A stretch of 64,000 nt of DNA from Capillidium heterosporum (taxonomy: Eukaryota; Entomophthoromycota; Entomophthoromycetes; Entomophthorales; Capillidiaceae). The position numbers were made by a program, and so were the translations under genes. Position 1 is the stretch's first letter, and the number at the start of each line of letters is the position of its first letter. Under the pieces are notes generated by a model that was not told where the DNA came from, did not search any database, and saw only the letters and a program-made list of their open reading frames with translations. The stretch is taken from positions 806,001 to 870,000 of the forward strand of contig WBMQ01000013.1 of NCBI GenBank assembly GCA_016630905.1. The letters are read 5' to 3'. Positions 40,096 to 61,754 of this stretch are shown one piece after another.

Positions 40096-40188
40096 AATTA
40101 TCAAAAGATAAAGTAAAAAGATGCTTATGAAATATATCAGTTTAGATGCTATCATATTTTTTATGTAATTCAGATAAGTATATAAAAG
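40096..40188 (+). promoter_or_regulatory. Promoter of outlying peptide copy
   Basis: AATTATCAAAAG at 40096-40107 followed 83 bp later by TATATAAAAG at 40179-40188, 79 bp before the ATG. Same arrangement as the array promoters. Confidence 0.6.
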
Positions 40189-40257
40189 CTGAGCAAATCA
40201 ATCTGACTTTTAACAAACATAACCAAACTAACTATTACATATACAAAAACTACAACA

Positions 40258-40467
40258 ATGATCCCTTTCGAAGCCATCCTATACATTAAGATCCTCAAGA
40301 GCGAGAATAATTCCTTTAGTTTTATGAAGATCATGTTCATTTTCATCAAGCAATATCTATGCCACTTGAAGCACCCTCTTCTCTCTTGTAAATACTCAAT
40401 TTATGAGATCTCTTTATTTCACCTACCAATAACATATATATCAAATGTAAATATAGTTTCCTATTGA
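40258..40467 (+). CDS. Diverged, extended copy of the amphipathic micropeptide gene
   Basis: The first 14 codons match the array peptides in pattern (MIPFEAILYIKILKS; invariant M1, I2, I10, K11, K14). The short reading does not stop at about codon 20 as in the others: it continues to 69 residues with a hydrophobic, F/I/Y-rich tail. An out-of-frame TAG lies at the position of the usual stop, so a one-base change probably removed it. The promoter has the array's TATA and upstream element. It lies outside the inverted repeat and is the most diverged member, either an old copy or a decaying one. Confidence 0.5.
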   Translation: MIPFEAILYIKILKSENNSFSFMKIMFIFIKQYLCHLKHPLLSCKYSIYEISLFHLPITYISNVNIVSY

Positions 40468-41445
40468 AATAAATATCCGCATTCTATCATTATTTTCTAA
40501 ATTTTATATATAGTATATTTTAGATAAATCTATTCCCTACTTGCATTCAGACATTGGACTGTCAGCAACTTTATATTTAATACCAAAATGGTGTTTCAAC
40601 TATACTTTGCATGTAATCAAGCTACAAATTCGTATTTATAATTCAATTAGCTTCAAGCGATTCATTAAATTAGTTATCGAGAAAGTAGACTCTACACCTA
40701 CTTTAAATTGGAGACGAGATTTTGTAAAGTTAAAATCGAAGTATTCACAAAAAATAAGTGTATTTTGTGGATGGAAGGTAAAGATTTTCAATAGATGAGT
40801 TGTCGACTGATCCTGCGGTGAACTAGCCAGTTTTATTACTATAATATGAGCATACTGTACTTTTTGTTTTATACTATAAAATATGAGTTCTGCTAACCAG
40901 CCAAGATCAAAATTGCTAAGGTTTAATGTTGCATCATACTCTCCGTATACAGCTACAAGCCCCCTAAATAGAAACCTTGCAGTCTTGAGCCTAAATACTG
41001 GTTTATTAATGCCTTAAATCACAAAAATATATGATAATAAAAGCATTATACCATCTTTAGAGGTATTAAGCTTTACTACACCTATCAAATTCTAGATTTA
41101 CATGTATCTCTGTCTACACCAGGAATATGCGACTTGAAACTTTCAACTCGCAAACATATTTACAATTAACTATTTATTAAAATCAATATAAAGTATATTA
41201 AATTGAAATCAAGTTCTACTATAGGCTATTTCAAATATACACACATGAAATTATTCTTTTCATTTAAATTTAGCTTTTCCACTCTGAACTATAAATTCAC
41301 CGCGAACACAAACAAACCTGATCCCATGTTTCAAATATTTATAACTCTGAAATTTACAACTTATAATAGATCTAAAATGACAGATAGGTTTGATCTTATA
41401 AAACGTATTGGAAAATGAATTTTACATCCAAGAAAGACTGGGTTT

Positions 41446-41533
41446 AATTATCAAAGGATATTTTATAAAATGTACACATAGGACAAAAATTTGGACGCTA
41501 TTACAATCGACAGTTTTCAGATGGGTATATAAA
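41446..41533 (+). promoter_or_regulatory. Promoter of left outer peptide gene
   Basis: AATTATCAAAGG at 41446-41457 and TATATAAA at 41526-41533, 62 bp before the ATG. It lies outside the arm, so the mirrored gene on the right uses a different promoter. Confidence 0.65.
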
Positions 41534-41587
41534 GTTCGAATCCATGCTGCAAAGATTTAAAAACAATTACTTTTATACACCATTACA

Positions 41588-41659
41588 ATGATCGTTCCCG
41601 GAGTTATCATACATATCAAGGCCATCAAAGCAATCAAAACAAACAAGGCATCTGCTTAA
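41588..41659 (+). CDS. Amphipathic micropeptide, 23 residues (copy 1, left arm)
   Basis: ATG 62 bp downstream of TATATAAA; no intron, no signal peptide. The peptide begins MIVPGVIIHIKAIKAIK and ends with a basic-polar tail (TNKASA). Hydrophobic residues fall every three to four positions (I2, V3, V6, I7, I10, I13, I16) with lysines on the other face (K11, K14, K17, K20), so a helix would be amphipathic with net positive charge. The 3' flank has AATAAA-type signals (TTAATAAACTTTAAATAAAC near 41881). Coding status rests on conservation of start, stop position and helix pattern across five diverged copies. Function unknown; a membrane-active or secreted-signal role is conjecture. Confidence 0.7.
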   Translation: MIVPGVIIHIKAIKAIKTNKASA

Positions 41660-43134
41660 TTTTAGGGAAGCCATTTCTACATTACTACTGGCCAGATCAG
41701 CACTGATTAAACTTTATCTTCTCTCCTGTACACACCAAGCCTATGGATCCCCTTATATTGCCTACTAGGGGCACCATCTGGGCAATTTGATATCTTATAT
41801 ACCCCTTGCACATATACTATTTATTGGATCCCTTTACTCCATTACTATTGACGTACACACCAAATGCAACTCCAGCTTATTAATAAACTTTAAATAAACC
41901 TACCCATACTACTTTTGCCTATGGGTTTTGGAATTCTATTTACTTGCACAAACCTGTATGTTTGGATTTTAGATTGCTATTGGATAGCCTTTCCATTTTA
42001 ACACACCCAAACATTACTATATAGCTTAGATATACATTTATTGTCGTTTGGATGTAGATTTGTCGATGGCTGACTTTCCTACTATCACTAGCTTCTGTCC
42101 AAAGCATAAGCTGAATGTAAACTTTCTGTCTATCTTAGGACATTAAATAGGTTGGTGGCTAACGCTGCATTGGAATTGCCTAACCCTAACTAAAACTGCT
42201 ATGTTTGAGTAGAGCAATCTATCCATAGCTGCACATTTAAACTATGGTTTTGGATTTCTACTGTGTTATTTGTGTACCTATTCGTAGAAGCTTCAAGTTT
42301 AGCTTTACTCATCGGACGTATGGACTGAACGGCGAATTTCATTACATAATAGAAACAGCAGGCTTTGTCGTTTCAAATTCACCGTATATGGCTGTAGGGC
42401 ATACTAGATAGAAGCTTCTATTCTCAGCTTGGAATATGGTTTAGTGACGTCTTAAACAAACAATAGTATAGTAAGAAATGCAACTGTGCCTTTTGAGGTA
42501 GCAGACTAGAATTACGCAATTCCAATCCCTCACATAGTCCTCTACCTATATCCAAATTTTCAATTCGGATTCTTTACCAACTTCCAAGAAATCAAACATC
42601 GGTAGATGAGCCTGCCTTTAAACCACCCTGCATATCGATATATTTGCTATGTTAAGCTAACTATACATTGCCTTGCAGTCCATAACAATCAAGCATTCCA
42701 TCAAATTGCGCTTCCTAATTAAGCAATTGTTCCTTTAGTCTGAACTGGAAATTTCGCCGCCAAACATAAACAAACATTAGACCACTTTCAAGTACTCACA
42801 AAATTAGTCATTGTAACATAGGCAGACTATTTGGAATTCTAAATATACTGTTAAGAATTAGCCGTACCCTCCATTGCCATTTCATCATCAAGAGGTCCAA
42901 AGTTGTCTGTTCTACAACTTGCGCTTTGATATCGGACTTATAGATAAGGATTTGGGAAACTTGATAGTTATGGCGATATTAGCACCCTCACCAATAATCC
43001 AAAACGCAGCGTCAATAAAAGAACTTCCAGGTAATGGTAGCCCCGAGTTCAACTAGTGAGTGATGTTATGAGAAGTAGCTGTGGAGCTGTAACGCTTCGG
43101 ATACTACCGCAGCTTTGTCATCTCTTCGACAAGG

Positions 43135-43142
43135 TATATAAA
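43135..43142 (+). promoter_or_regulatory. TATA box of peptide copy 2
   Basis: TATATAAA 60 bp before the ATG. I did not find the AATTAYCAAAGG element here, the only array promoter lacking it. The mirrored box is at 60049-60056. Confidence 0.6.
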
Positions 43143-43194
43143 CCCCTGGATTCATCAGCCAATCTTAATTAAACTTAGAAAAGTAACTACTTTT

Positions 43195-43254
43195 ATGATT
43201 ATTACCGATTTTGTTAAACGCATCAAGGCCATCAAGGGCAAGAGCTCGGCCTAG
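43195..43254 (+). CDS. Amphipathic micropeptide, 19 residues (copy 2, left arm)
   Basis: Begins MIITDFVKRIKAIKGK and ends SSA. I2, I3, F6, V7, I10 and I13 form one face; K8, R9, K11, K14 and K16 the other. The 5' leader is short and ends ACTACTTTTATG. The 3' region contains TGTACATA at 43320-43327, a PUF-type element also found after copy 4, then AATAAACTT near 43391. No longer frame extends the peptide. Confidence 0.72.
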   Translation: MIITDFVKRIKAIKGKSSA

Positions 43255-44503
43255 CTTAAAGGAGGCTGAACTCACCTTGGTATAGGCTTACCATCTCCCT
43301 TGAATCACCTTACCTCCTCTGTACATATCTAATTTATAGGATTCCCATACTCCACTTAATACACATACATATCATATATAGCTATAAACCTTAATAAACT
43401 TCCAATAGACTCGCCCGTTTTATAATAAAGCTTCTGAATTGCGTATGTTTTGGAAGATTCTATTTATCTGTATACTTTAACATGGAATCGTCATTAAAGG
43501 TTTGTTGAGGAATGTTTTCTACTAGTGGATGGCTTAAATATTTTGTTACTTGACATAGATGCAGTAAATGTAAATCCACACCTACTTTTTGTAATAGCGG
43601 CGGATCAATATTTTACTATTGAAATCAGAAAGATTTGTAAGCTATAGTTTGCACGCCATCAATTTGAGTTTGTATTCAAAGTAGGATCAACTACCAGTTC
43701 AATTTGTTTATCAAGGGAGAAATGCAGCTGTAAGCTTTATATCCGCTCTACACGGGATATGGGGTCCCGTATGGTTGGAATGGAGCACTCTCAAGAACGA
43801 GTTTGTCGAGATGAGAGGTGAGATCTTTGATCGGTAGGTCGCCGGTTGGTCTTAAGGTGAACCTGTCAGCTTCCTCACTACAATGCCAATAAATCTTTCA
43901 CTGCCTACCTGTAAGATAGAATATATAAATGGCAGGCTCTATTAGTCAATCAAGGCCAAAATCGATGGGCTCAACTTTGTACCGCACCCCTTGTATACAA
44001 GTATAAAGCGTCCTAATTAGAAACCATCAATATTGAGCCCAAGTGCCGGCCTATTAATATCTTAAACAAACAACCGGTATAATAAACCAAACTACTGCAC
44101 CATACTCGTAGGTATTAGACACTACCATAGCTATTGGATTCTAAACTTAAGCGTATATTTTTACCTACATCAAGAACATACAATATGGAACTTTTTCAAC
44201 TGCCAAGTATGTTTATAATGGATCATCTCTTAGCACTGATGCAAAGTTTATTAAATTGGAAATGGTCGTCTTACAGGCTATTTCGAATAGAGGCATATGG
44301 AATTGTAGTTTGCATTCAATTAGTCCTTTTACCCTCAGCTACAAATACACATGAAGCAAATAAATCCAAATCTGGTTCGAAAACTTGTTATTGAACATGC
44401 TAAAAATAAACGATTTTCACTCCAAAATATACAGTTAAGCTTTGGACAGGCTGACAAACTTAGCCAGCCCAAATGTGGCACCAGTAGGTAAACTTTACAG
44501 CCA

Positions 44504-44593
44504 AATTATCAAAGGGTGTTTAGTAAAATGCACATTCTATATAGAAATTTGGCCATAATTGCAGACTCAATGGCTTTCAGATAAGTATATAAG
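44504..44593 (+). promoter_or_regulatory. Promoter of peptide copy 3
   Basis: AATTATCAAAGG at 44504-44515 and TATATAAG at 44586-44593, 63 bp before the ATG. Mirrored at 58598-58687. Confidence 0.65.
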
Positions 44594-44648
44594 CCTGGCT
44601 ACTGCAATAGCTCTTTACCAAACAGCTATCCATAAACCAATTACTTTT

Positions 44649-44711
44649 ATGATCATTACCGACTTTATCAAACGTATCAAGGCTATCAAGCCAAAGAATG
44701 AATCCACTTAG
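44649..44711 (+). CDS. Amphipathic micropeptide, 20 residues (copy 3, left arm)
   Basis: Begins MIITDFIKRIKAIKPK and ends NEST. It shares the first six residues with copy 2 but differs at V7I, G15P and the tail, so the gene is diverging while start, length and helix are kept. Flanking sequence is more like that of copy 1 than of copy 2, suggesting duplication in pairs or conversion between copies. Confidence 0.72.
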   Translation: MIITDFIKRIKAIKPKNEST

Positions 44712-46017
44712 CTTTGTGGATGCTACTTCAACCTTGCTACAAGCGACACTAGTGCCGTTTGAATTAGATTATTTTCTTTGTACCCATCAAACTTAGCAAT
44801 CCCTTTACCTTTTCTATGAGAAACCACCTATACAACCCTAAAGCTCCTTCTCCTTCTCCTTACACATATTTATGGAATCTCTTTTTACAATTAATAATTA
44901 ATATACATATCAAATGCAGCTCCAACTATTTAATCTAACTTAAATAAACTCTTTTATACATTTATTCTATAAATTTTGAAATGCTTTTGCTTATACGAAC
45001 CTAGCTACATGGATGTTCTATGAAAATTGGATCGCTCTGGAAAGCTTTTAATATACCTGTTGCCGTTCAAACATAGGTTTACCAATAGTTAATTTCACTG
45101 CTGTCTACTCCCAATCCAAGAACACTATAAAACTAACCATTTCAACCTATTGTAGAATATACAGTAGGTTGACAGGCGTGATTCAAAAGTAAATATAGGA
45201 AGAACCTAAAGCCACTTTGAAGTAGAGTAGCACACCAATTGCTTTGTGCTGGAAGATGAAGCCGAGTTAAGTTGAGGCTTGTAGTTTTGCTGCACAGATT
45301 TGGATTTCTACTTGTATAGACTCCAGGTTTAGTTTGGCTTATCGAATGTGTAGGTGGAAGTGCCGATTTGATCAGCAAATGAAACATCAGGCTCAATGTC
45401 GTGTTGTACTTGCTATATAGAATTGTAGAATATTCTAGATACAGGATTCATGTTCTTGGATCAATAAAGTCTCTCCCTTGGAAATATTAGGCCATGTTTA
45501 AACCATAGAATTCTAACCTTACACGTAATTCTGTTTACCTAAAAATTCGCAAATTGGATTTCTTGGCATCCAAATTGCCATATACCATCATATAAGCTTA
45601 CGATTAAAACTATTTATTGTCAATAAACCTTATTAAATTAAATTGACTACGCGTTATCTATCAGCAATGGCAGCTACGCACTATATCAAGTCGCGCTCCT
45701 CTTTTAGCCAATTCTTTCATGTTGGAATCAAAATCCGCTGAAACGCAGATAAGCCTACTTTCAGGCATCCATGAAGTTACTGAATGCGGTATAGGCAAAG
45801 TGCCTCCAATTTCAAAGGGGTATATAAAAACTGCCTGTATATTCTATTTTTTATTTTGCTATCGAGATATTAATAGTATATCTTACAGTATCCAAATTGG
45901 CATTAACCGTATAGCAAAGGATTGGCAAATCTGGCTTTTATGACAAAATCTGGCTTAGCAACGATTTAAGCAAATCATCTATTTGTGGACTTTGCATCTA
46001 GTGATAGCGCTGAATTT

Positions 46018-46104
46018 AATTACCAAAGGATAATAAAGGTGATTACGCAACCCAGAAGCTCAGGTACCATCGCAGTTTTGATGGTTTCTAGATAGGTATA
46101 TAAA
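46018..46104 (+). promoter_or_regulatory. Promoter of peptide copy 4
   Basis: AATTACCAAAGG at 46018-46029 and TATATAAA at 46097-46104, 66 bp before the ATG. Mirrored at 57087-57173. Confidence 0.65.
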
Positions 46105-46162
46105 GCTTGGATCTGTCGACATATTATTTTAACAAATTACCATATTTACATCAACCACTACA

Positions 46163-46225
46163 ATGATCGTTCCTGGAGTTATCCTACGTATCAAGGCCCT
46201 CAAGGGCAAGAAGGGGCTCGCTTAG
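46163..46225 (+). CDS. Amphipathic micropeptide, 20 residues (copy 4, left arm)
   Basis: Begins MIVPGVILRIKALKGK and ends KGLA. It shares MIVPGVI with copy 1 and a GK-rich tail with copy 2. The 3' region has TGTACATA at 46298-46305 and TTTAATAAACTC near 46380. Innermost of the four left-arm genes. Confidence 0.72.
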   Translation: MIVPGVILRIKALKGKKGLA

Positions 46226-47292
46226 ATTTATTATTTGAAAGCCGAGCCTGCCTCACTTCAAACGATGCCTATACCTTTGGGACCACCACATCCCCTCTGT
46301 ACATATACACCCTACACCACCATCTTAATTTATCTATTTATACCACATGTATCAAATGTAAATACAGCTTCATACTAAACCTTTAATAAACTCCTGCTGC
46401 ACTTTATCCCAACCATTTATAGATTTCCAATAGTCTACGTTTAGGCAAAGCCCCATTCTTCTTTCAAATGAAACATGTATCACCAATACAGCGTATTTTC
46501 GAGTCTATACACTAATATGCGGCCTATATTTTGCTTTTTGTTTGCGTATGTCGATAAGCGGCTGTATAATGGATACTGTTTTGCAAAAATGTAGCAAATT
46601 GCTCACAACCTAGCTAAACTTCAGAATTGAACTCCAACTGCTATTTGCACTTCACTAGTCCCCAAATTCGTACCTCAATCGATACCAAATTTCAATTCAA
46701 ATCCCATAAACAAATAATCACCTCTCATAAATCTACATCTAAAGGTGCAAATAACTGTACTGGTGCCTGCTACTAGAATCAAGGCGTTACTATGATAACC
46801 GTTTTACAGCTGACAAAGTTTAAAGTATGTGATGTCTAGCAGTTGCCACTCAAATCGTGTTAAAACAGGCACTTTAAGCTTACAGATGGGCTTTATCAAC
46901 CAACCATCAATGAAGCTTTATAGAAGTTAAAACAGAACGGAGTGCAATTCTTTGGAACCTACGCTTAAAGTATTTAGCAATCTGAGGTTGTTGATCTGCT
47001 GTCGAAGCATCTAACACGTGACTCGGAATGCCTACATAACTGTAGTCTCAGTTTCAAAGCCCAAAGGTAGTGCTGAAATTCTCTACGAGACACCATCGTA
47101 AGAGGCTGACATCGAAGCTTCTATAAAGTAATGAAGCAATTGTGTTATTATACCTTTATACAATCAACCTTGGACCTAAATCTTTGACTTGCTATGATGC
47201 TGGATCTAATAGTTGGACTACAGCATTGAAGCCTCATCAATTTTTGACATTGGTACATCGGCAGTAGCTTTTGCCATCGGGCTTGAGTTAAA

Positions 47293-50078
47293 TTTTTGTT
47301 TAGCTAAAGTACTAAATCACCTTACTTCTGAGTTCAAACCTGATGTATATCGAGTATTTATTTAAGACTGTCTCAATCTAATTATTGATTAAATTGGAGT
47401 ATTGTCAGTTAACTCTAAAAATTTAGTCTATAATACCCTCATGTATCTACCTATAAATTATTTCAAATCCAGACAACTTGGCAGATACCATGTAATAGAT
47501 TTTATAATATAGAAAAATATTTAAGATAAAGTATCCTTTAATATAGTGTTTTTCCAGGATTCAAATGAGGCAATTCTTAATAGTAAACCATATCAAATTT
47601 TACAATAATTAAACTAGAACTGTTTTATTTTTGCTTATGGAGAGAAATACCACTTTAATGGAAAGAGGGTAAGAAACCAATATCTGGACTGTAAAGTATT
47701 ATTACCTGGCAGAAATGAATATTATTCAATTATAAATGCACAATTAGGTTTATAGAACTTTCAACTACATCGTAAAAAATAGATACCCAGCATAGCTCAT
47801 TCTTGTCGACATTACATGAGTTTCTGGCCAACCCTTAAAACTTTCAGTGGCATCTCGCAAACTAAAGTGTCTTTTGAAACTCTATTGAAGGACTTTTCTA
47901 ATAGCTCAAGCACCTAAAAGCAGCTTACTAACTGAAAGCATAGGACCTAGCACATAATTTTTCAGCCTATATTCACTACTATATAACTAATCCTCACACT
48001 TTTTAATTCGAAATAGGATCAAAAGTAAAAATTTTAATAGTCGGTTTTTAACCTGATGATCAAAGCAGCATGTTCGAAAATATCCACCTAGCCAAACTCT
48101 TTGTCCGCTACATTGAGGTCCGCTCAGTGACGTCTTATGAGCTGATAATAGCTTCGAGACTCTATCAATGAGCCTTCATAATTCGAAAAGCTTAACTATC
48201 ATCTATCAACAAAAGTTTTTCTGGCTTAAATATTAAGTTTGTTGGAACCTACCTTTACCACTTTCCAACTAAAGTTCGCTACCATATAACTAATCTACTA
48301 CGTTGTTTAATTCAGAATAGGATCAAAGCCAAGTAGATTTGGTAATTATCATCTACGGAAGATACCATTTGTAAAGGAAGTCCCTTAGAAATGATAGTGC
48401 ATACTTTAAAGCACTTCTATCAGATTCTTTCCTAGATGGCAACTTCCCCAAGCAGGTGCCGTCATATTTCCGATAATTGACCTGGAATCTTGTTGCTGAA
48501 GCACCATCTTCAAAATTGTATCCACCACTATAAAATCTTCTAGGCCTTTTATTAATAATCTATCACCTTACCAACTTTGAATTTGAAATTGACATGTATG
48601 TACATTTACCATCGAACTTAGGGGATATTATAAGTGACTCAGCCATCAAGCAAAAATATATCCAACACTGGACATCATGACCATCACAATCATTTCCATA
48701 ATATCTACTATGATATACACCCATATGTGCCTAATTAATTATAAGAACGTTCCATCCTACGGCTTTTAGTTGACCTCAAATTTAAATGGTGTTTCGAATA
48801 TGAACTACAAGTTACTTTGCCACAATACATCCTCTATATCGTTTCAGCTAGCTTATCTAATATATTTCCAAGGGAGGAGGAAGTGCCGATTGGAGTTAAC
48901 CCTTATGTTGTAAAATATATTTTCAAGCAACTGATGTGGAGGTATAGCTTGTCCTTGAAGGCATGATTTAAATTCTAGGAAACTGGAATAGGTTGTCGGT
49001 ATACGATAGCAGGTGGAAATTTTTGAAACTTTTGATTTCACCTTTTCTATTACAAAGCTGGTGAGACATATTCATCTACTTTTATAGCATAGTTTTTCCG
49101 TAATCATCTGGTGGAAATACTGTTGCATAAAAATGAACAATAGGTTTCTAGCAAAAAATAAAAATATCTAAACCAACGAAAAGATTTCAAGTGAATCTAA
49201 TCGGCATACAGTTTAAGGCGCTTACTAAAGTGCTAATAAAATGAAGTATATCCCGCTATATCTACACCTTTTAACCTTCCCAGGTGTTCTTACCCACAAA
49301 CTTTAGAATCTATAATCGAAAATGGATAAAGTTCGGTAAAATCTATATTAGTTTGGATCAGAAGGTAAGTTTTTTCACTAGAACAAGTTGTCTTTGGTTG
49401 AAAAGTAGGGATAATTATAAATTGAACAAATATGGCTTTACTAGCACTCTGTCCGCTCCGCTCCCTTCTAGACTTGGCTTCAAGGCGACCTGCTTTCCCT
49501 ATGCAAATATCTTAAATACATTATATCATAAGACAGCCTTGGGACGCTTGGAGCCTAAGTATAGAGTCGAAATTGAGCCCCAGCCCATCCAAAATTTATC
49601 ATACCAGCTGGAAACCAATTATAAATAAATATATCCTTATCAGCTGAGATTGCCATTAATTTAAAAAATCGGTAATAACCCGAAAGCATCAATTACCAAT
49701 AGTTTTTAAAGTTTTATGCAAGTAATAGTTCCATCTGTCGAAGCTGAGGTTATTCTTTTATCCTGGTTTCAATTTGTGAACCAAAGTGACGAGTTCCCAA
49801 GCGAATTTGTTAGGGAAAAGTCAAGTTAGTGATCACAAGGCCAACTAAAATATATCTTAGTCAAATGTTTGTTGCCATAAAGCAAACTTGCACTACAAGT
49901 TATAACGTGCAGTTGTAATAAATTCAAAAATAGGTTTGGGATGAAGGGTATATAAGCCGACATCGCGTCCAAATTGAAAACAAATTTCAATTGCACCAAC
50001 TCTACACTTTTACTTACCCTTATCCTTACACTTTATCCTTTGCCTACATTTACATATATATCCAAATAAATTCGAGAA
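47293..50078. other. Core, left part: no confident gene
   Basis: AT-rich. Two blocks near 47977 and 48284 resemble each other (ATATAACTAATC and AATAGGATCAAA in both, about 305 bp apart), a decayed tandem repeat. A 114-codon open frame at 49284-49628 lacks an ATG and I could not join it to the ATG at 49241. TATATAAG at 49948-49955 begins the promoter of the 75-residue ORF. Confidence 0.45.
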
Positions 50079-50306
50079 ATGACCCCAAAATACAACCAAG
50101 AGTCCAACTACCTCGTCTACTACGGTAAACTCATCCACAAACTAAGCACTACCGAGAAGCACCGCATCCTAAAGACCAAAATCGAGTACCGGCTGGCTAG
50201 CAAGCTTGCCTTCAACCACCCCAAGAATGCAAGGATGACCCTTAAGATGCGAGTCAAAAAGCTGAAAGCGGCTGCCTTACCTATACTCGAATGTGAAGGC
50301 TGTTGA
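50079..50306 (+). CDS. 75-residue lysine-rich protein of unknown function
   Basis: ATG 131 bp downstream of TATATAAG. The leader between them is pyrimidine-rich (CTTTTACTTACCCTTATCC), as in highly expressed yeast-like genes, and AATAAATTTATT follows near 50386. The product starts MTPKYNQESNYLVYYGKLIH, continues as a basic helix-prone stretch (RILKTKIEYRLASKLAF, MTLKMRVKKLKAAALPI) and ends LECEGC with two cysteines. Base composition is richer in GC than the surrounding core, consistent with coding. No signal peptide. No family recognised; nucleic-acid or membrane binding would fit the charge but is inference. Confidence 0.55.
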   Translation: MTPKYNQESNYLVYYGKLIHKLSTTEKHRILKTKIEYRLASKLAFNHPKNARMTLKMRVKKLKAAALPILECEGC

Positions 50307-52049
50307 TGCACTTTTCTACTACAAGCTATTTATTTCTGTACACGTCTCCTACATCTTTACATTCCCCACCCCCTCTCCCTCTTAGCAAATAAATTTATTA
50401 GCATGTTATTTGAATTCAAGTTGGCTTATATGATATATGTAAAATCTTAGATTTATTAGTGCTCCTTCAAATATATAAAAGGTCCTTGTAGGATGTATCT
50501 CAAGCTTCTACTAGGATATTCCAGCTGCCTTGTACTACCTTGGTTCGGCTTCACCCTACGCCTCCATTTTATAAATTTATAAAAAATGTAGAGCTAATCT
50601 GACAGGCAGTTTTTTGAGATATTTTGTCAGTGTGGAAAATTATAGATTCATCCTATCAAGTCCATCTTTCGATTGAAATATCTGCCTTTACCAGGAAAAA
50701 AGCCTATCGATGGCTAAATATCATTGAAAAGCAGCCTACTGGCATTTTATACCAAGTGACGGATAATTCCAACTTTTATTGATATAGAGATGAGCCTAGT
50801 AACTTTATAATCAAAATAATGGCACTAAGCTATCGGTAATTTTATCTATTTCAAATGATTTTAATGTTTTTATTAGAACCTGGAATATTTGCTTAAAAGG
50901 CAGAAGATATGCTTCCAATTATTATACAAATAATCTTTGTATAGGATAATTAGATGGAGTAGTTGAAAGGCTTTTTATACTGGGATTACGATTCATTTAG
51001 ATACATATACATTGAATTTGAACTGGACCTTTTGAATCAATGAATATATATGGATACTAAGAAAGTCCTGTTAAACAAAAGAATCGAGCCTATAGAGTTC
51101 ATGTAAGTTTGCAGTTCTCTTAGTATATAGGCAGATAATTTTAGATGAATCCAGTCCAGTCTATATCGTAAAAAATTGACTTTATGGGCTGTGACTACTT
51201 TCATTTTTACATTTTTGTTGTGATAGGTAGCTCATAAATCTGTACCTAAAATTTGGAATTGCTATTGATAAGTTTCCATATTCCACCAAAAGTCTGGATT
51301 TTATCGGGAAATTTACATTTCTGAATCCAATAGAAGATGGAATCACGGGTACTTGGAAAAATTTAGTGTAAATACCGAATTGGATATACAATAGGATATT
51401 TAGATTGGGTTTTAGGTATACAAAGATAGTGGAAGGTGAAAGTACAGTTTGATGACTGTTCATTGTGGGTTGGATCTTAACTTTGGGCTTGATATATATC
51501 TATTGTATGGATTAATTTAAGTAATATTGATCTATAACGAATATTGTATACAGTGAAAATTAACACCTATTTGTGTAAGAAATTCAGGCCTATATGTAGG
51601 TTTACCATTTATTATTGGCAAGGTTCTCAGTAATAAAATCTATCTATTCAATACTCTACCAGGATTGAAAATATACTCAGTTGTATAGTATTAAATAGCT
51701 TTATCGAATAAACAGAAAATACTATACCTTTTTAAATGGAATAGAAAAACAATAGTAAAAAAGTAAATATTAGTTTTATAGTTAAATTAGAAACAGCTCT
51801 AATGCTAAAGTTAATAAAATTATATCGAATACCTTGTCGCATCCTACAGTTGTACATCTAACTAGAATAAATAGTGAATTTCAACCCAAGTCCGAATACT
51901 CACAAGTCAAATTAAAGTCGAGATCTTTAAACCATGGCTTGGTGATGTTGGAAGATTTATATTCCAGAGCAAATTTCCAAAATCGAAATGAAAAAACTAT
52001 AAGCCACTTAACAAAAGCTAACTCACCAAAACTTCTTTCCAGCGACCCA
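50307..52049. other. Core, middle: no gene recognised
   Basis: About 1.7 kb of AT-rich sequence between the 75-residue ORF and the 3' end of the Zn2Cys6 factor. Short frames on both strands lack supporting signals. Confidence 0.4.
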
Positions 52050-53960
52050 TTAGTAAACCTTCTTCAGCATACGATCAGCAACCTGACCAGCCACCGAGTA
52101 GATATCTCGGATGATGATCCATCGCTCCGAACTCGACTCCAGTATCCCTACTAACTCAGATATGCACTTGCTGATAGGGAGCTCATCCGACAATTTCACC
52201 TTGTTGATGATGACGAGATGAATGAACAGCGTCTGCAGGAAGGCATACCAGTGTACGGGGATAGAAGGTTCCAAAAACATTTCCGAATGAGTTCGAACAA
52301 TGTGGTAGCTCCGTCGTGCTCCGGCCACGCATTTTTGTAATGGGGTCAAAGTAGTCAGCGCGTTGATGGTAGGTTCGGGTTGCATGAATGGAAGTGGATC
52401 ATTTAGGTCTACAAACGGTTTGTTGAGGTCGACTAGCAATGATAGATAGAAAAAGTGAAGGTTGAGGGTGTGGAGGTTCAAGTCGTTAGGCTTCCCCAGT
52501 GTTGAGTCCAATTTAGGGCCAAGTGTCGTTTCAGTCTCACTTAAGCCTAGCATGACTTCCTTCTCCAGCTTGGTGCAGGTTCGACGGTAGGCATGGAGGG
52601 CATTCTTTTGACTCTCGTTGTCGTTACTGTTACTCAGTCTGAAGAGGATGGTTGCCTCAGCGTAGCGGGCCATGATGTCAAATACGGTGCAGACCTTGAT
52701 AAAGTAATCGGCCGATGTTTCGACACTGATGGTGATAGCTGCCTTGACCTTCAAGACCTCAGGTAAACCGAAACTGACAGTAGGTCCCAGTACTTGGTCC
52801 AGCTTAGGGATATCGGCCTCAGTAAACGAATTGAAGGCAAAGGGACGTCCGAAACAGTAAGAGTGGGCAACTTCGCACAGACCGAGTACCCACCAGGTTC
52901 GAGTGATAATCTTACTGAGGGTTGGGGGACGATGTTTGTCCTGGAGGTGAAAGCCGAGGCTGAAGCACATGCGATGGGCCATCCCCAACAGATTCCAATT
53001 CCGGTAGATGAGGGGGTCGTTTTCGCTGAGATTGGAATGGTAGCAAGCCAACGCCAAGGTTTGAACTGTCGAGAGGGAAGGTTTTAAATATATGTATTTG
53101 AGTTTCTGGGAAAGCGATACTGAGAATAACTGGGAGAGTTTGCGCCCCACCGTACGGTCGGGGTAATAACTGGCGCCAACCAGGCAAACCGCATCTTGTA
53201 AGGCTAGAAAACTGATACTCTGACACTCTTGGTTGAGCTTGTTGAAGAAATAGGGTGGGTAGATCAGAGGGTAGAAGGTGTTGAGGTAGGCAAAGTATAA
53301 TTCAGTCAGTTGCAACTTGAGACGGCTGTGTAAGCTGATATCCAAGTTGGGGATCTTTGGTGAGGGTAAAGCTTTGAGGTTGAAGGTAGTGGAGGTACAG
53401 TTGAGGAGTTTGGAATTGGATGTGAAGTAAAAGGTGGCCAACGATGGTCCTGAGTAATAAGCCCGTCCATCATTGTGCAGGTAGGTTTTCGAGTTGACAT
53501 TAGCCAGTACCGAGCTACTTACGATCTTACTTATGAAATTAGCCTCATCCATGAACAGCCGTGAAGTTGGAATACGCCGCGTAGGTACGAGTTCGAAACA
53601 GTTGTTGGTGTTAAAGACGAGAGTGCTGTTACCATTAAGGTTGGAATTCAAGCTGGTGCTGGAATTGGAATTTGTACTAAAGTTGACAACAAAATCCGAT
53701 CTAGCGCCTTGGGCCAACTTGAAACTGGCACTCTTACCTTTATTTCGTATCCGCTTAGATTTAGGGCGTTGTGCACCGAACCCACTTCGGTTGAAAGTAC
53801 ATTCTAAGCTGTTCTCCTGGCATTCAAAACATTTGGGTTTCGCCAAATTACACTTACGTTTGCGTATCTTGCAGAGATCGCATACCTTTGGCAACGGTCC
53901 TCGGCGCGTGCTGGTGACAACAGGTTTGTTGGGTAAGCCGTCGTACTCTATAAACTCCAT
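52050..53960 (-). CDS. Zn2Cys6 (Gal4-type) fungal transcription factor
   Basis: Single-exon nuclear regulator of 636 residues. The binuclear zinc cluster is at the N-terminus: C27, C30, C37, C44, C47 and C54 (CDLCKIRKRKCNLAKPKCFE, then CQENSLEC), followed by a basic stretch (KSKRIRNKGK). The S/N-rich linker (about 95-115) leads to a fungal-specific middle homology region: LQLTELYFAYLNTFYPLIYP, ALACYHSNLSENDPLIYRNW, HRMCFSLGFHLQDKHRP and ITRTWWVLGLCEVAHSYCFG with RPFAF. The C-terminal helices run to the end (SVAGQVADRMLKKVY). It is the only long gene in the core between the inverted repeats. Its targets are unknown; location makes the flanking peptide genes candidates, which is conjecture. Confidence 0.93.
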   Translation of the reverse strand: MEFIEYDGLPNKPVVTSTRRGPLPKVCDLCKIRKRKCNLAKPKCFECQENSLECTFNRSGFGAQRPKSKRIRNKGKSASFKLAQGARSDFVVNFSTNSNSSTSLNSNLNGNSTLVFNTNNCFELVPTRRIPTSRLFMDEANFISKIVSSSVLANVNSKTYLHNDGRAYYSGPSLATFYFTSNSKLLNCTSTTFNLKALPSPKIPNLDISLHSRLKLQLTELYFAYLNTFYPLIYPPYFFNKLNQECQSISFLALQDAVCLVGASYYPDRTVGRKLSQLFSVSLSQKLKYIYLKPSLSTVQTLALACYHSNLSENDPLIYRNWNLLGMAHRMCFSLGFHLQDKHRPPTLSKIITRTWWVLGLCEVAHSYCFGRPFAFNSFTEADIPKLDQVLGPTVSFGLPEVLKVKAAITISVETSADYFIKVCTVFDIMARYAEATILFRLSNSNDNESQKNALHAYRRTCTKLEKEVMLGLSETETTLGPKLDSTLGKPNDLNLHTLNLHFFYLSLLVDLNKPFVDLNDPLPFMQPEPTINALTTLTPLQKCVAGARRSYHIVRTHSEMFLEPSIPVHWYAFLQTLFIHLVIINKVKLSDELPISKCISELVGILESSSERWIIIRDIYSVAGQVADRMLKKVY

Positions 53961-55898
53961 AACTCTTGGCTGGTTAATCTTGTAAAGGAACTATGGTCGC
54001 TTCAAATTCTTGGCTCAAGAGTTTTGGAATAAGCTCCATTCTTTCACTCAGGGGTAGTAGGAATGTCTAGCACCCGATTTAGTTGGCCTATTATTAATTG
54101 AAAGATCGGTAAAACATGTTCAAATGGGAGCTGGAAATCAACTTGTTTCATTTTAACTTTGGCTACAATTTCAATAACAGGGTGGCTGAAAAGTTTAGCC
54201 AGCTTTTGCTAGCAAGTGATGGCATTTGTCAAGAAAGGTAACACCGACTTCTTACCCTAGATAACTATAAGGGGGTTTGCTATTTTCCAGCTTTTCGAGC
54301 TGATGTTCGAAGCTAATTGGACTGATAAAGCTTAGAAAGTCTAGAGCTAGGCATTAGATTTCCTGGAGAAAAATTAAATAGAATTTTCTAGCTATGCTGT
54401 GTATAATTGTCCTTTGTAGCCGAAGATATATAGGACTGGCTAATCGACTGCATTTCCTCCTTTCTGATTATAATGCCAAGGGTTGGTGTGGACCCTTGGT
54501 CCTACTACTATTAAATATGATAATAGCCTTGATTTAAAAAATATGTAGAGATGGTTCCTGACCAACCTTAATCCAAATCTCAGCTGCAATTTACAACCAT
54601 TGCAGCTTGAGCAGTAAGATTCATAGGAAGATTAATCCTTTTTGATTTCAAGTTTCATTCTATTTCTGAGCTTTCATAATAGTTTTTATTACCATAATGA
54701 CTGATTTTCACCCCTTTTTATAACAATATCAATATCACAAAGTTGAAGTTCAACATGCTAAGGTATCATCAATATAACATTATGTAAACAGTATTGGCAC
54801 CAGTTAACCTCCTTTAACCATATAATTGGTTTTACTAATACCAACCCCTTCATCCTAATGACAACTTTCTTACTGGAATTATCAACAGATATTTGTGCTA
54901 CTCCCGCTCCATTTACCTATTCCGACTACATTTTTAATGCAGATATCGATTAGATCTAAACAAATAGTAAAATCTATAGGTTCAAAAACCAACAACATCT
55001 TGCTAGTACCATTATGGAACAAGTAAATAGAAACTATTCTTGCATATATATAATTTCTAACGCTACATTAGCTATTTAGTGTTGGTTCGTGGACTTTACA
55101 AGATTCGGGATAGTTTTTTAACATTTTTGTGATTTTTAAGTACTTGTGATAGCATACTAAAGCTAGTGCTTGAAAGTATTCCAACAGGTGAAAGACTAGC
55201 CAAAAATGACAAATATCAGATTTTGAAAAAATTAAATAGGTATCTGAACCGATGAGATGAAAGCAAAAGAAGCAGAGAACAAATATCAATGGAGGATAAG
55301 ATTCGATAGTCCAGAGATCCAAAGTTCTTAAAATAGAGGATATTTCTGATCTAAGCATAAGAGTATAAAAGCTAATATATATTGGTTTAAATAAATATAT
55401 TAGGTTCTACATAAATTTAAATTGAGTTTTACACATATATTTTTTAATGGTAATTTAATGGAAGTATTAACTTCCAATATCGTTTTAAGCCTGTTTTTTT
55501 CTAAGTCAATATCGAAAGATGCTTGTAACGACTGTCCGATAGAACCAGTCATTGCAATAAATTGGAGTCGCTAGAGGGCAATGCCCAGCATTCAGTACTG
55601 AATTAAATTGATAGTAGATAGCTTATCTTATAGTTTACAGATTTTGGTACATGATTTTCCTTCATATCAGTTCAGCTTCGCACTACCCAATTAGACTTCA
55701 TTATTTAAAGTTCGTATTTAAGTAATATACTTTAGTTAGTATCATCTGACCCACGACTAGAGTGGTTATTAAATTTGATAGTTTCAAATGAAACTTTCTG
55801 TCATTGTCTGTTAGATTTTACTTGGGATTTAGTAAATAATATGTATCGTACTTTGAACTTAACAATATTATAATTTCGGTACCACAAATCAGTGAGAC
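53961..55898. other. Core, right part: no confident gene
   Basis: Promoter side of the Zn2Cys6 factor. A hydrophobic 96-codon frame on the minus strand (55358-55068) has an ATG but no supporting signals, so I do not call it. Confidence 0.4.
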
Positions 55899-56965
55899 TT
55901 TAACTCAAGCCCGATGGCAAAAGCTACTGCCGATGTACCAATGTCAAAAATTGATGAGGCTTCAATGCTGTAGTCCAACTATTAGATCCAGCATCATAGC
56001 AAGTCAAAGATTTAGGTCCAAGGTTGATTGTATAAAGGTATAATAACACAATTGCTTCATTACTTTATAGAAGCTTCGATGTCAGCCTCTTACGATGGTG
56101 TCTCGTAGAGAATTTCAGCACTACCTTTGGGCTTTGAAACTGAGACTACAGTTATGTAGGCATTCCGAGTCACGTGTTAGATGCTTCGACAGCAGATCAA
56201 CAACCTCAGATTGCTAAATACTTTAAGCGTAGGTTCCAAAGAATTGCACTCCGTTCTGTTTTAACTTCTATAAAGCTTCATTGATGGTTGGTTGATAAAG
56301 CCCATCTGTAAGCTTAAAGTGCCTGTTTTAACACGATTTGAGTGGCAACTGCTAGACATCACATACTTTAAACTTTGTCAGCTGTAAAACGGTTATCATA
56401 GTAACGCCTTGATTCTAGTAGCAGGCACCAGTACAGTTATTTGCACCTTTAGATGTAGATTTATGAGAGGTGATTATTTGTTTATGGGATTTGAATTGAA
56501 ATTTGGTATCGATTGAGGTACGAATTTGGGGACTAGTGAAGTGCAAATAGCAGTTGGAGTTCAATTCTGAAGTTTAGCTAGGTTGTGAGCAATTTGCTAC
56601 ATTTTTGCAAAACAGTATCCATTATACAGCCGCTTATCGACATACGCAAACAAAAAGCAAAATATAGGCCGCATATTAGTGTATAGACTCGAAAATACGC
56701 TGTATTGGTGATACATGTTTCATTTGAAAGAAGAATGGGGCTTTGCCTAAACGTAGACTATTGGAAATCTATAAATGGTTGGGATAAAGTGCAGCAGGAG
56801 TTTATTAAAGGTTTAGTATGAAGCTGTATTTACATTTGATACATGTGGTATAAATAGATAAATTAAGATGGTGGTGTAGGGTGTATATGTACAGAGGGGA
56901 TGTGGTGGTCCCAAAGGTATAGGCATCGTTTGAAGTGAGGCAGGCTCGGCTTTCAAATAATAAAT

Positions 56966-57028
56966 CTAAGCGAGCCCCTTCTTGCCCTTGAGGGCCTTGA
57001 TACGTAGGATAACTCCAGGAACGATCAT
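56966..57028 (-). CDS. Amphipathic micropeptide, 20 residues (copy 4, right arm)
   Basis: Exact mirror of the copy at 46163-46225, including TATA (57087-57094) and upstream element (57162-57173). Confidence 0.72.
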   Translation of the reverse strand: MIVPGVILRIKALKGKKGLA

Positions 57029-58479
57029 TGTAGTGGTTGATGTAAATATGGTAATTTGTTAAAATAATATGTCGACAGATCCAAGCTTTATATACCTATC
57101 TAGAAACCATCAAAACTGCGATGGTACCTGAGCTTCTGGGTTGCGTAATCACCTTTATTATCCTTTGGTAATTAAATTCAGCGCTATCACTAGATGCAAA
57201 GTCCACAAATAGATGATTTGCTTAAATCGTTGCTAAGCCAGATTTTGTCATAAAAGCCAGATTTGCCAATCCTTTGCTATACGGTTAATGCCAATTTGGA
57301 TACTGTAAGATATACTATTAATATCTCGATAGCAAAATAAAAAATAGAATATACAGGCAGTTTTTATATACCCCTTTGAAATTGGAGGCACTTTGCCTAT
57401 ACCGCATTCAGTAACTTCATGGATGCCTGAAAGTAGGCTTATCTGCGTTTCAGCGGATTTTGATTCCAACATGAAAGAATTGGCTAAAAGAGGAGCGCGA
57501 CTTGATATAGTGCGTAGCTGCCATTGCTGATAGATAACGCGTAGTCAATTTAATTTAATAAGGTTTATTGACAATAAATAGTTTTAATCGTAAGCTTATA
57601 TGATGGTATATGGCAATTTGGATGCCAAGAAATCCAATTTGCGAATTTTTAGGTAAACAGAATTACGTGTAAGGTTAGAATTCTATGGTTTAAACATGGC
57701 CTAATATTTCCAAGGGAGAGACTTTATTGATCCAAGAACATGAATCCTGTATCTAGAATATTCTACAATTCTATATAGCAAGTACAACACGACATTGAGC
57801 CTGATGTTTCATTTGCTGATCAAATCGGCACTTCCACCTACACATTCGATAAGCCAAACTAAACCTGGAGTCTATACAAGTAGAAATCCAAATCTGTGCA
57901 GCAAAACTACAAGCCCCAACTTAACTCGGCTTCATCTTCCAGCACAAAGCAATTGATGTGCTACTCTACTTCAAAGTGGCTTTAGGTTCTTCCTATATTT
58001 ACTTTTGAATCACGCCTGTCAACCTACTGTATATTCTACAATAGGTTGAAATGGTTAGTTTTATAGTGTTCTTGGATTGGGAGTAGACAGCAGTGAAATT
58101 AACTATTGGTAAACCTATGTTTGAACGGCAACAGGTATATTAAAAGCTTTCCAGAGCGATCCAATTTTCATAGAACATCCATGTAGCTAGGTTCGTATAA
58201 GCAAAAGCATTTCAAAATTTATAGAATAAATGTATAAAAGAGTTTATTTAAGTTGGATTAAATAGTTGGAGCTGCATTTGATATGTATATTAATTATTAA
58301 TTGTAAAAAGAGATTCCATAAATATGTGTAAGGAGAAGGAGAAGGAGCTTTAGGGTTGTATAGGTGGTTTCTCATAGAAAAGGTAAAGGGATTGCTAAGT
58401 TTGATGGGTACAAAGAAAATAATCTAATTCAAACGGCACTAGTGTCGCTTGTAGCAAGGTTGAAGTAGCATCCACAAAG

Positions 58480-58542
58480 CTAAGTGGATTCATTCTTTGG
58501 CTTGATAGCCTTGATACGTTTGATAAAGTCGGTAATGATCAT
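58480..58542 (-). CDS. Amphipathic micropeptide, 20 residues (copy 3, right arm)
   Basis: Exact mirror of the copy at 44649-44711; TATA at 58598-58605 and upstream element at 58676-58687. Confidence 0.72.
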   Translation of the reverse strand: MIITDFIKRIKAIKPKNEST

Positions 58543-59936
58543 AAAAGTAATTGGTTTATGGATAGCTGTTTGGTAAAGAGCTATTGCAGTAGCCAGGCTT
58601 ATATACTTATCTGAAAGCCATTGAGTCTGCAATTATGGCCAAATTTCTATATAGAATGTGCATTTTACTAAACACCCTTTGATAATTTGGCTGTAAAGTT
58701 TACCTACTGGTGCCACATTTGGGCTGGCTAAGTTTGTCAGCCTGTCCAAAGCTTAACTGTATATTTTGGAGTGAAAATCGTTTATTTTTAGCATGTTCAA
58801 TAACAAGTTTTCGAACCAGATTTGGATTTATTTGCTTCATGTGTATTTGTAGCTGAGGGTAAAAGGACTAATTGAATGCAAACTACAATTCCATATGCCT
58901 CTATTCGAAATAGCCTGTAAGACGACCATTTCCAATTTAATAAACTTTGCATCAGTGCTAAGAGATGATCCATTATAAACATACTTGGCAGTTGAAAAAG
59001 TTCCATATTGTATGTTCTTGATGTAGGTAAAAATATACGCTTAAGTTTAGAATCCAATAGCTATGGTAGTGTCTAATACCTACGAGTATGGTGCAGTAGT
59101 TTGGTTTATTATACCGGTTGTTTGTTTAAGATATTAATAGGCCGGCACTTGGGCTCAATATTGATGGTTTCTAATTAGGACGCTTTATACTTGTATACAA
59201 GGGGTGCGGTACAAAGTTGAGCCCATCGATTTTGGCCTTGATTGACTAATAGAGCCTGCCATTTATATATTCTATCTTACAGGTAGGCAGTGAAAGATTT
59301 ATTGGCATTGTAGTGAGGAAGCTGACAGGTTCACCTTAAGACCAACCGGCGACCTACCGATCAAAGATCTCACCTCTCATCTCGACAAACTCGTTCTTGA
59401 GAGTGCTCCATTCCAACCATACGGGACCCCATATCCCGTGTAGAGCGGATATAAAGCTTACAGCTGCATTTCTCCCTTGATAAACAAATTGAACTGGTAG
59501 TTGATCCTACTTTGAATACAAACTCAAATTGATGGCGTGCAAACTATAGCTTACAAATCTTTCTGATTTCAATAGTAAAATATTGATCCGCCGCTATTAC
59601 AAAAAGTAGGTGTGGATTTACATTTACTGCATCTATGTCAAGTAACAAAATATTTAAGCCATCCACTAGTAGAAAACATTCCTCAACAAACCTTTAATGA
59701 CGATTCCATGTTAAAGTATACAGATAAATAGAATCTTCCAAAACATACGCAATTCAGAAGCTTTATTATAAAACGGGCGAGTCTATTGGAAGTTTATTAA
59801 GGTTTATAGCTATATATGATATGTATGTGTATTAAGTGGAGTATGGGAATCCTATAAATTAGATATGTACAGAGGAGGTAAGGTGATTCAAGGGAGATGG
59901 TAAGCCTATACCAAGGTGAGTTCAGCCTCCTTTAAG

Positions 59937-59996
59937 CTAGGCCGAGCTCTTGCCCTTGATGGCCTTGATGCGTTTAACAAAATCGGTAATAATCAT
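59937..59996 (-). CDS. Amphipathic micropeptide, 19 residues (copy 2, right arm)
   Basis: Exact mirror of the copy at 43195-43254; TATA at 60049-60056. Confidence 0.72.
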   Translation of the reverse strand: MIITDFVKRIKAIKGKSSA

Positions 59997-61531
59997 AAAA
60001 GTAGTTACTTTTCTAAGTTTAATTAAGATTGGCTGATGAATCCAGGGGTTTATATACCTTGTCGAAGAGATGACAAAGCTGCGGTAGTATCCGAAGCGTT
60101 ACAGCTCCACAGCTACTTCTCATAACATCACTCACTAGTTGAACTCGGGGCTACCATTACCTGGAAGTTCTTTTATTGACGCTGCGTTTTGGATTATTGG
60201 TGAGGGTGCTAATATCGCCATAACTATCAAGTTTCCCAAATCCTTATCTATAAGTCCGATATCAAAGCGCAAGTTGTAGAACAGACAACTTTGGACCTCT
60301 TGATGATGAAATGGCAATGGAGGGTACGGCTAATTCTTAACAGTATATTTAGAATTCCAAATAGTCTGCCTATGTTACAATGACTAATTTTGTGAGTACT
60401 TGAAAGTGGTCTAATGTTTGTTTATGTTTGGCGGCGAAATTTCCAGTTCAGACTAAAGGAACAATTGCTTAATTAGGAAGCGCAATTTGATGGAATGCTT
60501 GATTGTTATGGACTGCAAGGCAATGTATAGTTAGCTTAACATAGCAAATATATCGATATGCAGGGTGGTTTAAAGGCAGGCTCATCTACCGATGTTTGAT
60601 TTCTTGGAAGTTGGTAAAGAATCCGAATTGAAAATTTGGATATAGGTAGAGGACTATGTGAGGGATTGGAATTGCGTAATTCTAGTCTGCTACCTCAAAA
60701 GGCACAGTTGCATTTCTTACTATACTATTGTTTGTTTAAGACGTCACTAAACCATATTCCAAGCTGAGAATAGAAGCTTCTATCTAGTATGCCCTACAGC
60801 CATATACGGTGAATTTGAAACGACAAAGCCTGCTGTTTCTATTATGTAATGAAATTCGCCGTTCAGTCCATACGTCCGATGAGTAAAGCTAAACTTGAAG
60901 CTTCTACGAATAGGTACACAAATAACACAGTAGAAATCCAAAACCATAGTTTAAATGTGCAGCTATGGATAGATTGCTCTACTCAAACATAGCAGTTTTA
61001 GTTAGGGTTAGGCAATTCCAATGCAGCGTTAGCCACCAACCTATTTAATGTCCTAAGATAGACAGAAAGTTTACATTCAGCTTATGCTTTGGACAGAAGC
61101 TAGTGATAGTAGGAAAGTCAGCCATCGACAAATCTACATCCAAACGACAATAAATGTATATCTAAGCTATATAGTAATGTTTGGGTGTGTTAAAATGGAA
61201 AGGCTATCCAATAGCAATCTAAAATCCAAACATACAGGTTTGTGCAAGTAAATAGAATTCCAAAACCCATAGGCAAAAGTAGTATGGGTAGGTTTATTTA
61301 AAGTTTATTAATAAGCTGGAGTTGCATTTGGTGTGTACGTCAATAGTAATGGAGTAAAGGGATCCAATAAATAGTATATGTGCAAGGGGTATATAAGATA
61401 TCAAATTGCCCAGATGGTGCCCCTAGTAGGCAATATAAGGGGATCCATAGGCTTGGTGTGTACAGGAGAGAGGATAAAGTTTAAGCAGTGCTGATCTGGC
61501 CAGTAGTAATGTAGAAATAGTTTCCCTAAAA

Positions 61532-61603
61532 TTAAGCAGATGCCTTGTTTGTTTTGATTGCTTTGATGGCCTTGATATGTATGATAACTCCGGGAACGAT
61601 CAT
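61532..61603 (-). CDS. Amphipathic micropeptide, 23 residues (copy 1, right arm)
   Basis: Coding sequence identical to the copy at 41588-41659, but only six bases upstream of the ATG are shared; the promoter is different (see 61655-61754). Substitutions against the left arm begin about 10 bp after the stop codon. Confidence 0.72.
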   Translation of the reverse strand: MIVPGVIIHIKAIKAIKTNKASA

Positions 61604-61654
61604 TGTAATAATGGGTAAAGTGATGATGTTAAAAATTGTGTCGGTAGGCTTAGG

Positions 61655-61754
61655 CCTTATATACCTACCTGAAGATTTATAAAACTACGGAAAAGCTTAT
61701 ATTGGCATAGTCCGTAGCTATTTTTGGTATGCCCTTTAACAATTAAATTTGGCT
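61655..61754 (-). promoter_or_regulatory. Promoter of right outer peptide gene (not part of the arm)
   Basis: TATATAAGG (complement of 61655-61663) and AATTGTTAAAGG (complement of 61743-61754) keep the 80-bp spacing of the array promoters although the rest differs from the left outer promoter. Further upstream the sequence resembles the region upstream of copy 4 (AATTAAATT, then GTGCAAAGT versus ATGCAAAGT). Confidence 0.6.

Follow-up and report, generated by a model that had tools for sequence, protein, structure and literature searches.

We analyzed a window of 64,000 nucleotides from Capillidium heterosporum, which corresponds to positions 806001-870000 of contig WBMQ01000013.1 (C5) in an assembly of 29.5 Mb and 44 contigs. 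The original prediction had placed nine tiny genes in this window, and all nine open reading frames (ORFs) were found at the positions given for them, five on the plus strand and four on the minus strand. On the plus strand, u1 (41588..41659, 23 residues), u2 (43195..43254, 19 residues), u3 (44649..44711, 20 residues), and u4 (46163..46225, 20 residues) were preceded by a TATATAA box at 41526..41532, 43135..43141, 44586..44592, and 46097..46103, with the ATG located 62, 60, 63, and 66 bp downstream, respectively. The remaining plus-strand ORF, u0 (40258..40467), is a diverged copy with a 69-residue frame, in which the first 20 residues belong to the family and the remainder extends past the usual stop position; its TATATAA box lies at 40179..40185, 79 bp upstream of the ATG. 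This copy, reading past the family stop, may be decaying. The minus strand carries mirror copies of u4 (56966..57028), u3 (58480..58542), u2 (59937..59996), and u1 (u1b; 61532..61603), all letter-identical to their plus-strand counterparts, and the TATATAA box of u1b (61657..61663) is 60 bp from its ATG. The TATA-to-ATG distance was 60 to 66 bp in every window gene except u0, and the presence of TATATAA in all nine agrees with the predicted multicopy family of leaderless micropeptides with a promoter for each gene. Compared with its sister u4, the u1 peptide has three extra residues, apparently owing to a short 9-nt tandem expansion (ATC AAR GCN), which is a hint of how such peptides lengthen or arise.

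The four minus-strand ORFs are located in the right arm (55899..61609, minus strand) of a large inverted repeat, the left arm of which spans 41582..47292 on the plus strand. The arms are 5711 nt each and 99.88% identical, with seven mismatches, none of them within ORFs, and are separated by a spacer of 8606 nt. Because the minus-strand ORFs are exact copies inside these arms, the nine genes of the window amount to only five independent sequences. The outer end of the left arm lies 6 bp upstream of the u1 ATG, and the TATATAA box of u1b is situated beyond the right arm. The promoters of u1 and u1b were just 49% identical, and either was 56% identical to the u4 promoter, with TATATAA kept at 60 to 62 bp. 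Since u1 and u1b have the ORF and the arm in common but differ so strongly in their promoters, a conversion tract that stopped at the u1 start codon would account for the arrangement more readily than a plain inverted duplication of recent origin.

The family is not confined to the window. A second cluster of twelve genes was found on the same contig at C5:387-427 kb, and the count of nine in the original prediction was therefore too low. The genes of cluster 2 start at C5:387213, 392951, 397108, 398560, 400054, 413005, 415169, 417530, 420734, 422898, 423620, and 426837, and the first frame to be met was about 450 kb from the window. This cluster also contains an inverted repeat (C5:412800-416511 and C5:419392-423103) of 3712 nt with 6 mismatches and 99.84% identity; two gene pairs are mirror copies within this 3.7-kb repeat, and the 2.9-kb spacer holds another family gene. 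Altogether, the family comprises at least 21 genes encoding at least 15 distinct peptides, five from the window and ten from cluster 2.

Cluster 2 was found by a genome search for the codons of I-K-A-[IL]-K, followed by reading of the surroundings of one frame. Seven of its twelve genes were recovered by a profile that had been built without them, the two mirror copies were recovered by a protein search, and the genes at 423620 and 426837 were first noticed by their TATA box and peptide. Several accepted members had weak profile scores (E values of 0.06 to 12), similar to those of non-family ORFs, and membership was accepted on mutual likeness with the TATA tags in view. The hidden Markov model scan covered 280 kb of genome sequence and the tiny-ORF scan covered 293 kb. 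The pattern ATHAARGCNMTHAAR had 155 matches in the genome, and the 52 that were read included 11 belonging to the family, of which 10 lie in the window and 1 in cluster 2. A narrower pattern, ATYAARGCNMTCAAR, had 36 matches, all among the 52 read, with 11 in the family and 25 outside it. These counts exceed that of a backwards control (28), which contains CG and hence is not a fair one. The search for MGP[TI]F returned 19 matches, namely seven known genes and twelve unread matches, two of which (C27 and C38) match family genes in all 15 letters; M[ST]GP returned seven, consisting of four family genes, two rejected frames, and one unread match (C7). Because searches with short protein or DNA queries are insensitive, missing even known siblings, and some of the matches are unread, the figure of 21 genes is a lower bound. 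Two kinds of look-alikes were rejected as members. The 15-residue MKLRSI frames at C5:410144 and C5:885232 (both on the minus strand), which carry TATATAAG, are similar in their flanks as well, pointing to a diverged repeat, and the MTGP frames at C5:234491 and C5:1117398 have no IK-x-x-K.

The pattern of differences between copies indicates that these are very probably real monocistronic micropeptide genes. In six disjoint within-subfamily pairs, third codon positions held 29 of 47 differences (P = 6e-5), and their share was 727 of 1635 (44%) when the 15 distinct genes were compared in all 105 pairings. In ten tested pairs, ORF identity was 67 to 88% over 14 to 16 codons, compared with 20 to 53% in the ungapped flanks, and in eight of these pairs the amino acid changes were milder than expected from random placement (P = 0.001 to 0.027). 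The pooled G+C content at third codon positions (GC3) was 0.54 in the ORFs, whereas the flanks gave 0.33 and synonymous recoding gave 0.33 ± 0.03; four reference genes had similar or higher values (0.55 to 0.57 in three window genes and 0.70 in UGP1). Gene by gene, GC3 was above its own null mean in 14 of 15 genes, with P below 0.05 in seven. A TATATAA box at positions -75 to -45 precedes 18 of the 21 genes in the family; among the 1580 other ORFs of 15 to 25 residues in the 293 kb, 17 have one. This comparison is partly circular for cluster 2 because the TATA tags were seen during acceptance of its members. In the three remaining genes, TATATAA lies at about 80 bp (40258 and 417530) or occurs in an altered form (387213). 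The pattern M-x7/8-[IV]-K-x-x-K was present in one of the 1580 non-family ORFs.

Several results, apart from this circularity, weigh against a coding interpretation. Codon-position bias between copies, which had been put forward as a check, was present within subfamilies and over all pairs but was missing from the window itself: for the ten pairs of its five copies, the first 14 codons gave 46, 34, and 41 differences at the first, second, and third positions, respectively, and family columns 3 to 14 gave 46, 34, and 37. Most of these ten pairs are between diverged subfamilies. Because they showed no third-position excess, the coding question would have stayed unsettled with the window as the only evidence, and our confidence in the genes was lowered slightly. 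Furthermore, two of the ten pairs in the replacement test, which were our own choice out of 105, showed no bias toward conservative changes (P = 0.44 and 0.60). GC3 was low (0.21) in the gene at 417530, and eight of the 15 genes were individually nonsignificant.

The flanks are consistent with short, separate transcripts. An AATAAA signal within 420 nt past the stop was found for all five distinct window genes (for u0, counted from its extended stop), as predicted for most of them, and for 13 of the 15 distinct genes overall, with the first one at 130 to 231 nt in 11 of these. The element TGTANA[TC]A, which resembles a Puf-protein site, was found in the 3' flank of nine of the 15, with the first site 32 to 110 nt past the stop, and may point to a common control of the mRNAs. 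Over 600 nt downstream, no sense frame exceeded the maximum of 100 shuffles; the longest, a frame of 94 codons at u0, equaled the shuffled maximum and includes the u0 extension. On this ground, a first exon or an upstream frame of a longer protein was rejected. In cluster 1, as we call the window genes, units outside the recent inverted repeats were detectably similar in the ORF or in the promoter and ORF, with scattered 3'-flank matches, and one pair in cluster 2 aligned over about 650 bp at 71%. A regulon controlled by GATA factors was also considered and rejected, as HGATAR sites in the 250 bp upstream averaged 1.33 per gene against a background of 1.21, and the excess in cluster 1 (2.20) rests on too few sites.

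Next, we examined the design of the peptides. They have 17 to 23 residues, leaving aside the 69-residue u0 frame, and five distinct ones are shorter than 20 residues. The residues M1, I2, I10, K11, and K14, which had been described as invariant, are so among the five distinct window peptides; in the alignment of all 15, invariance is limited to K11 and K14, and position 10 holds V in one peptide and I in the other 14. The consensus of the 15 is M-x-G-P-x-x-I-x-x-I-K-x-x-K-x-x-K, with the G-P near the start conserved in most cluster 2 peptides and with variable tails. Each peptide has four to six Lys/Arg residues, except for two in the diverged u0, and the net charge was +3 to +5 in 14 of the 15 and zero over the first 23 residues of u0. 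None of the 15 appears to have a signal peptide, and a length of 17 to 23 residues would be too short for a cleavable leader. The peptides of at least 20 residues (10 of 15) had no family in Pfam or NCBIfam at E values up to 10, the lone Pfam match being ARMET_C for one member (E = 0.054), and the best match of the family profile in the PDB had an E value of 7.5. A relationship to known peptide families was accordingly rejected on the basis of these three databases.

The original prediction of an amphipathic helix with lysines on the opposite face was not upheld. The 120-degree hydrophobic moment was 0.73, compared with 0.47 ± 0.034 in shuffled peptides (P = 0.001), whereas the 100-degree moment over residues 2 to 17 was at shuffle level (Fisher P = 0.95) and that of the best 11-residue window was 0.51 against 0.46 ± 0.034 (P = 0.067). 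An amphipathic alpha-helix was thus rejected, as the helical moment was not clearly above shuffles. The spacing of residues agrees with a period of three: Lys/Arg pairs three residues apart numbered 2.40 per peptide compared with 0.82 in shuffles, those four apart numbered 0.20 compared with 0.75, and hydrophobic pairs three apart numbered 3.00 compared with 1.62. In addition, hydrophobicity was 0.70 higher in the nine residues that follow Met than in the remainder of the peptide, compared with a difference of 0 ± 0.14 in shuffles. Both the period and the gradient persisted in seven subfamily representatives (all P = 0.001). The design is therefore one in which Ile and Lys recur every third residue and a hydrophobic N-terminal half is followed by a cationic C-terminal half. 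Folded as a 3-10 helix, such a peptide would place an Ile stripe beside a Lys stripe; as a chain, it would resemble a surfactant with head and tail.

From this design, we consider it about an even call that the peptides act directly as cationic surfactant-like molecules, outward on membranes or on surfaces. In the proposed mechanism, the strong TATA box would give rise to a short mRNA, extending from about 30 bp after TATA to AATAAA, and each mRNA would yield a single leaderless peptide of 17 to 23 residues. The peptide would remain unprocessed save for removal of Met where Gly, Ser, or Thr comes next, and export without a leader could occur through a transporter or by cell lysis. The hydrophobic N-terminal half may then insert in the lipid membrane, with the lysine-rich C-terminal half resting on anionic head groups, and the fungus could in this way disturb the membranes of a competitor, prey, or host or give its own surfaces a coating. 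Near-identical inverted-repeat arms would raise gene dosage, and gene conversion would keep the copies alike; homogenized palindromes seem to surround several copies in both clusters, which would keep the dosage up.

Other observations speak against such a membrane action, which is suggested by composition only. Lytic peptides usually show an alpha-helical moment, and the lack of a clear excess over shuffles here counts against the proposal. Hydrophobic pairs four residues apart were mildly increased (1.93 compared with 1.50; P = 0.04, or 0.12 for the seven representatives), and the period-3 moment was nonsignificant in some single peptides, such as u4 (P = 0.49). The 15 peptides are related, so that their common traits are partly a single event and the P values are indicative. 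Of nine window ORFs scanned with Pfam, one is an MFS-type transporter frame and none an ABC exporter; the genome as a whole was not searched for exporters.

Among the other explanations, a role inside the cell has the most weight, but we regard it as rather doubtful. The peptides might regulate an organelle membrane, a membrane protein, or a nucleic acid by binding to it, with copy number setting the dosage. The apparent lack of a signal peptide, judged from length and sequence, fits this role, as do the period-3 lysines with their hydrophobic spacing; lysines at every third place recall the charge spacing of voltage-sensor S4 segments. Nine of the 10 distinct peptides of cluster 2 have Gly, Ser, or Thr directly after Met, as expected of a normally processed cytosolic product. 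However, the combination of subfamily divergence, clustering, and recent homogenization would be more common in secreted or defensive peptides than in housekeeping regulators. The conserved G-P near the start of most cluster 2 peptides, together with their variable tails, could instead suggest signaling peptides or precursors of modified peptides, such as a pheromone, a quorum signal, or a ribosomally synthesized product like those of the MSDIN family, with the conserved part serving as a recognition element. Short precursor families do exist in fungi, as described for MSDIN (PMC5159998), but the alignment of the 15 peptides revealed neither a conserved leader and follower around a variable core nor the two MSDIN prolines. 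The nine ORFs scanned in the window included no prolyl oligopeptidase, an enzyme for which the whole genome was not searched. We consider this explanation unlikely.

The least probable explanation is that no peptide function exists and that the frames reflect an RNA-level role, upstream frames of longer transcripts, or decayed repeats of mobile elements. The copies do sit in large repeats, and the frames at C5:402673-404698 inside cluster 2 look similar to a MULE-type transposase. The ten window pairs that lack a third-position excess also favor this explanation and made us consider it marginally less improbable than before. Against it, the bias toward third positions, seen inside subfamilies and in the full set of 105 pairs, and the gene-like GC3 led us to reject noncoding repeats; conservation is concentrated in the promoter and ORF, no downstream frame rose above the shuffled maximum, and the window had no Rfam match at the gathering score. 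An explanation without any peptide thus appears very improbable, and direct action of surfactant-like peptides is the interpretation that we prefer.

The neighborhood of the window cluster contains further genes. In the spacer between the arms, a Pfam scan identified a Zn2Cys6/Fungal_trans transcription factor (52050..53960, minus strand), which had no match in a single-sequence search at an E value of 0.001 or below and may for this reason be very diverged. It is a possible but unproven candidate for a regulator of the micropeptide genes. The spacer also holds a lysine-rich ORF of 75 residues at 50079-50306, whose flanks carry a GTATATAAG box and a TGTACA element; a homologue search with this ORF returned none. 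To the left of the cluster lie a GATA zinc-finger factor with two fingers (36080-37945, minus strand), a GH18 chitinase-like gene (32494-34107, minus strand), and, 12 kb away, the MFS-type transporter frame (27207-28034, minus strand).

These results indicate that a family of genes below the usual annotation cutoffs, with signs of selection at the codon level, exists in an early-diverging lineage of fungi that has insect pathogens among its relatives. Normal annotation tends to miss genes this short. If the peptides are membrane active, they would represent a eukaryotic counterpart of the leaderless lytic peptides of bacteria, based on a new sequence code, and would offer a simple model of dosage by palindromes. 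The family motif and the promoter spacing, with GTATATAA[AG] upstream, make the question testable in the sequenced Entomophthoromycotina. The UDP-glucose pyrophosphorylase (UGP1) of this assembly was 86% identical to that of Neoconidiobolus thromboides, 84% to that of Entomophthora muscae, and 81% to that of Massospora cicadina, and no other named fungus among the 120 hits listed exceeded 76%; these values point to an entomophthoralean source that is probably none of the three species. The Conidiobolus group is described as predominantly saprotrophic, and two of 11 Neoconidiobolus species are named as pathogens (PMC9409958). Neither Conidiobolus nor Zoopagomycota is named in the main text of a survey that covered the conserved small ORFs of 31 fungal genomes (PMC7394265), and no description of such a fungal family was found among the best matches listed (20 or fewer for each search) from the open-access literature of PubMed Central, which does not take in subscription journals or preprints.

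Finally, we compared the family with known systems. The original prediction had likened the family's general design to bacterial membrane-active modulins. The alpha-type phenol-soluble modulins of staphylococci are similar in having about 20 residues, no signal peptide, a neutral to positive charge, and several genes together (PMC10778951). They form an amphipathic alpha-helix (PMC5052566) and have a dedicated ABC exporter, Pmt (PMC10778951). The likeness holds for size, charge, and the missing leader but does not extend further: no modulin model matched the 10 of 15 peptides long enough to scan (Pfam and NCBIfam, E values up to 10), and the modulins are bacterial and alpha-helical, whereas the present family is eukaryotic, with a TATA box for each gene and a period-3 pattern. 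A fuller form of our interpretation, in which the clusters are an independently evolved eukaryotic arsenal of modulin-like, leaderless cationic surfactants of about 20 residues, written in a period-3 Ile/Lys code, kept identical in palindromes by conversion, and used in interactions with arthropods or microbes, is put forward only tentatively. Candidalysin (Ece1) is likewise a short cationic fungal peptide directed at membranes. Kex2 and Kex1 release it from a precursor of 271 residues that has a signal peptide and KR sites (PMC12153327), whereas the family described here consists of free-standing frames of 17 to 23 residues, each with its own TATA box and stop, and no precursor was seen in the 600 nt downstream. 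The MSDIN genes of Amanita are also tiny fungal genes for short precursors that have expanded and diverged. Their products are described as having 33 to 37 residues, with a 10-residue leader, a 17-residue follower, a variable core, and two prolines for POPB (PMC5159998), and none of these precursor features appeared when the 15 distinct peptides were aligned. The design also resembles that of synthetic surfactant-like peptides such as A6K, in which a hydrophobic tail and a lysine head are combined in one short chain (PMC1868779). The A6K-type peptides are designed molecules of seven residues with one charge, whereas the C. heterosporum family is natural and carries four to six Lys/Arg residues (two in the diverged u0), largely at steps of three.

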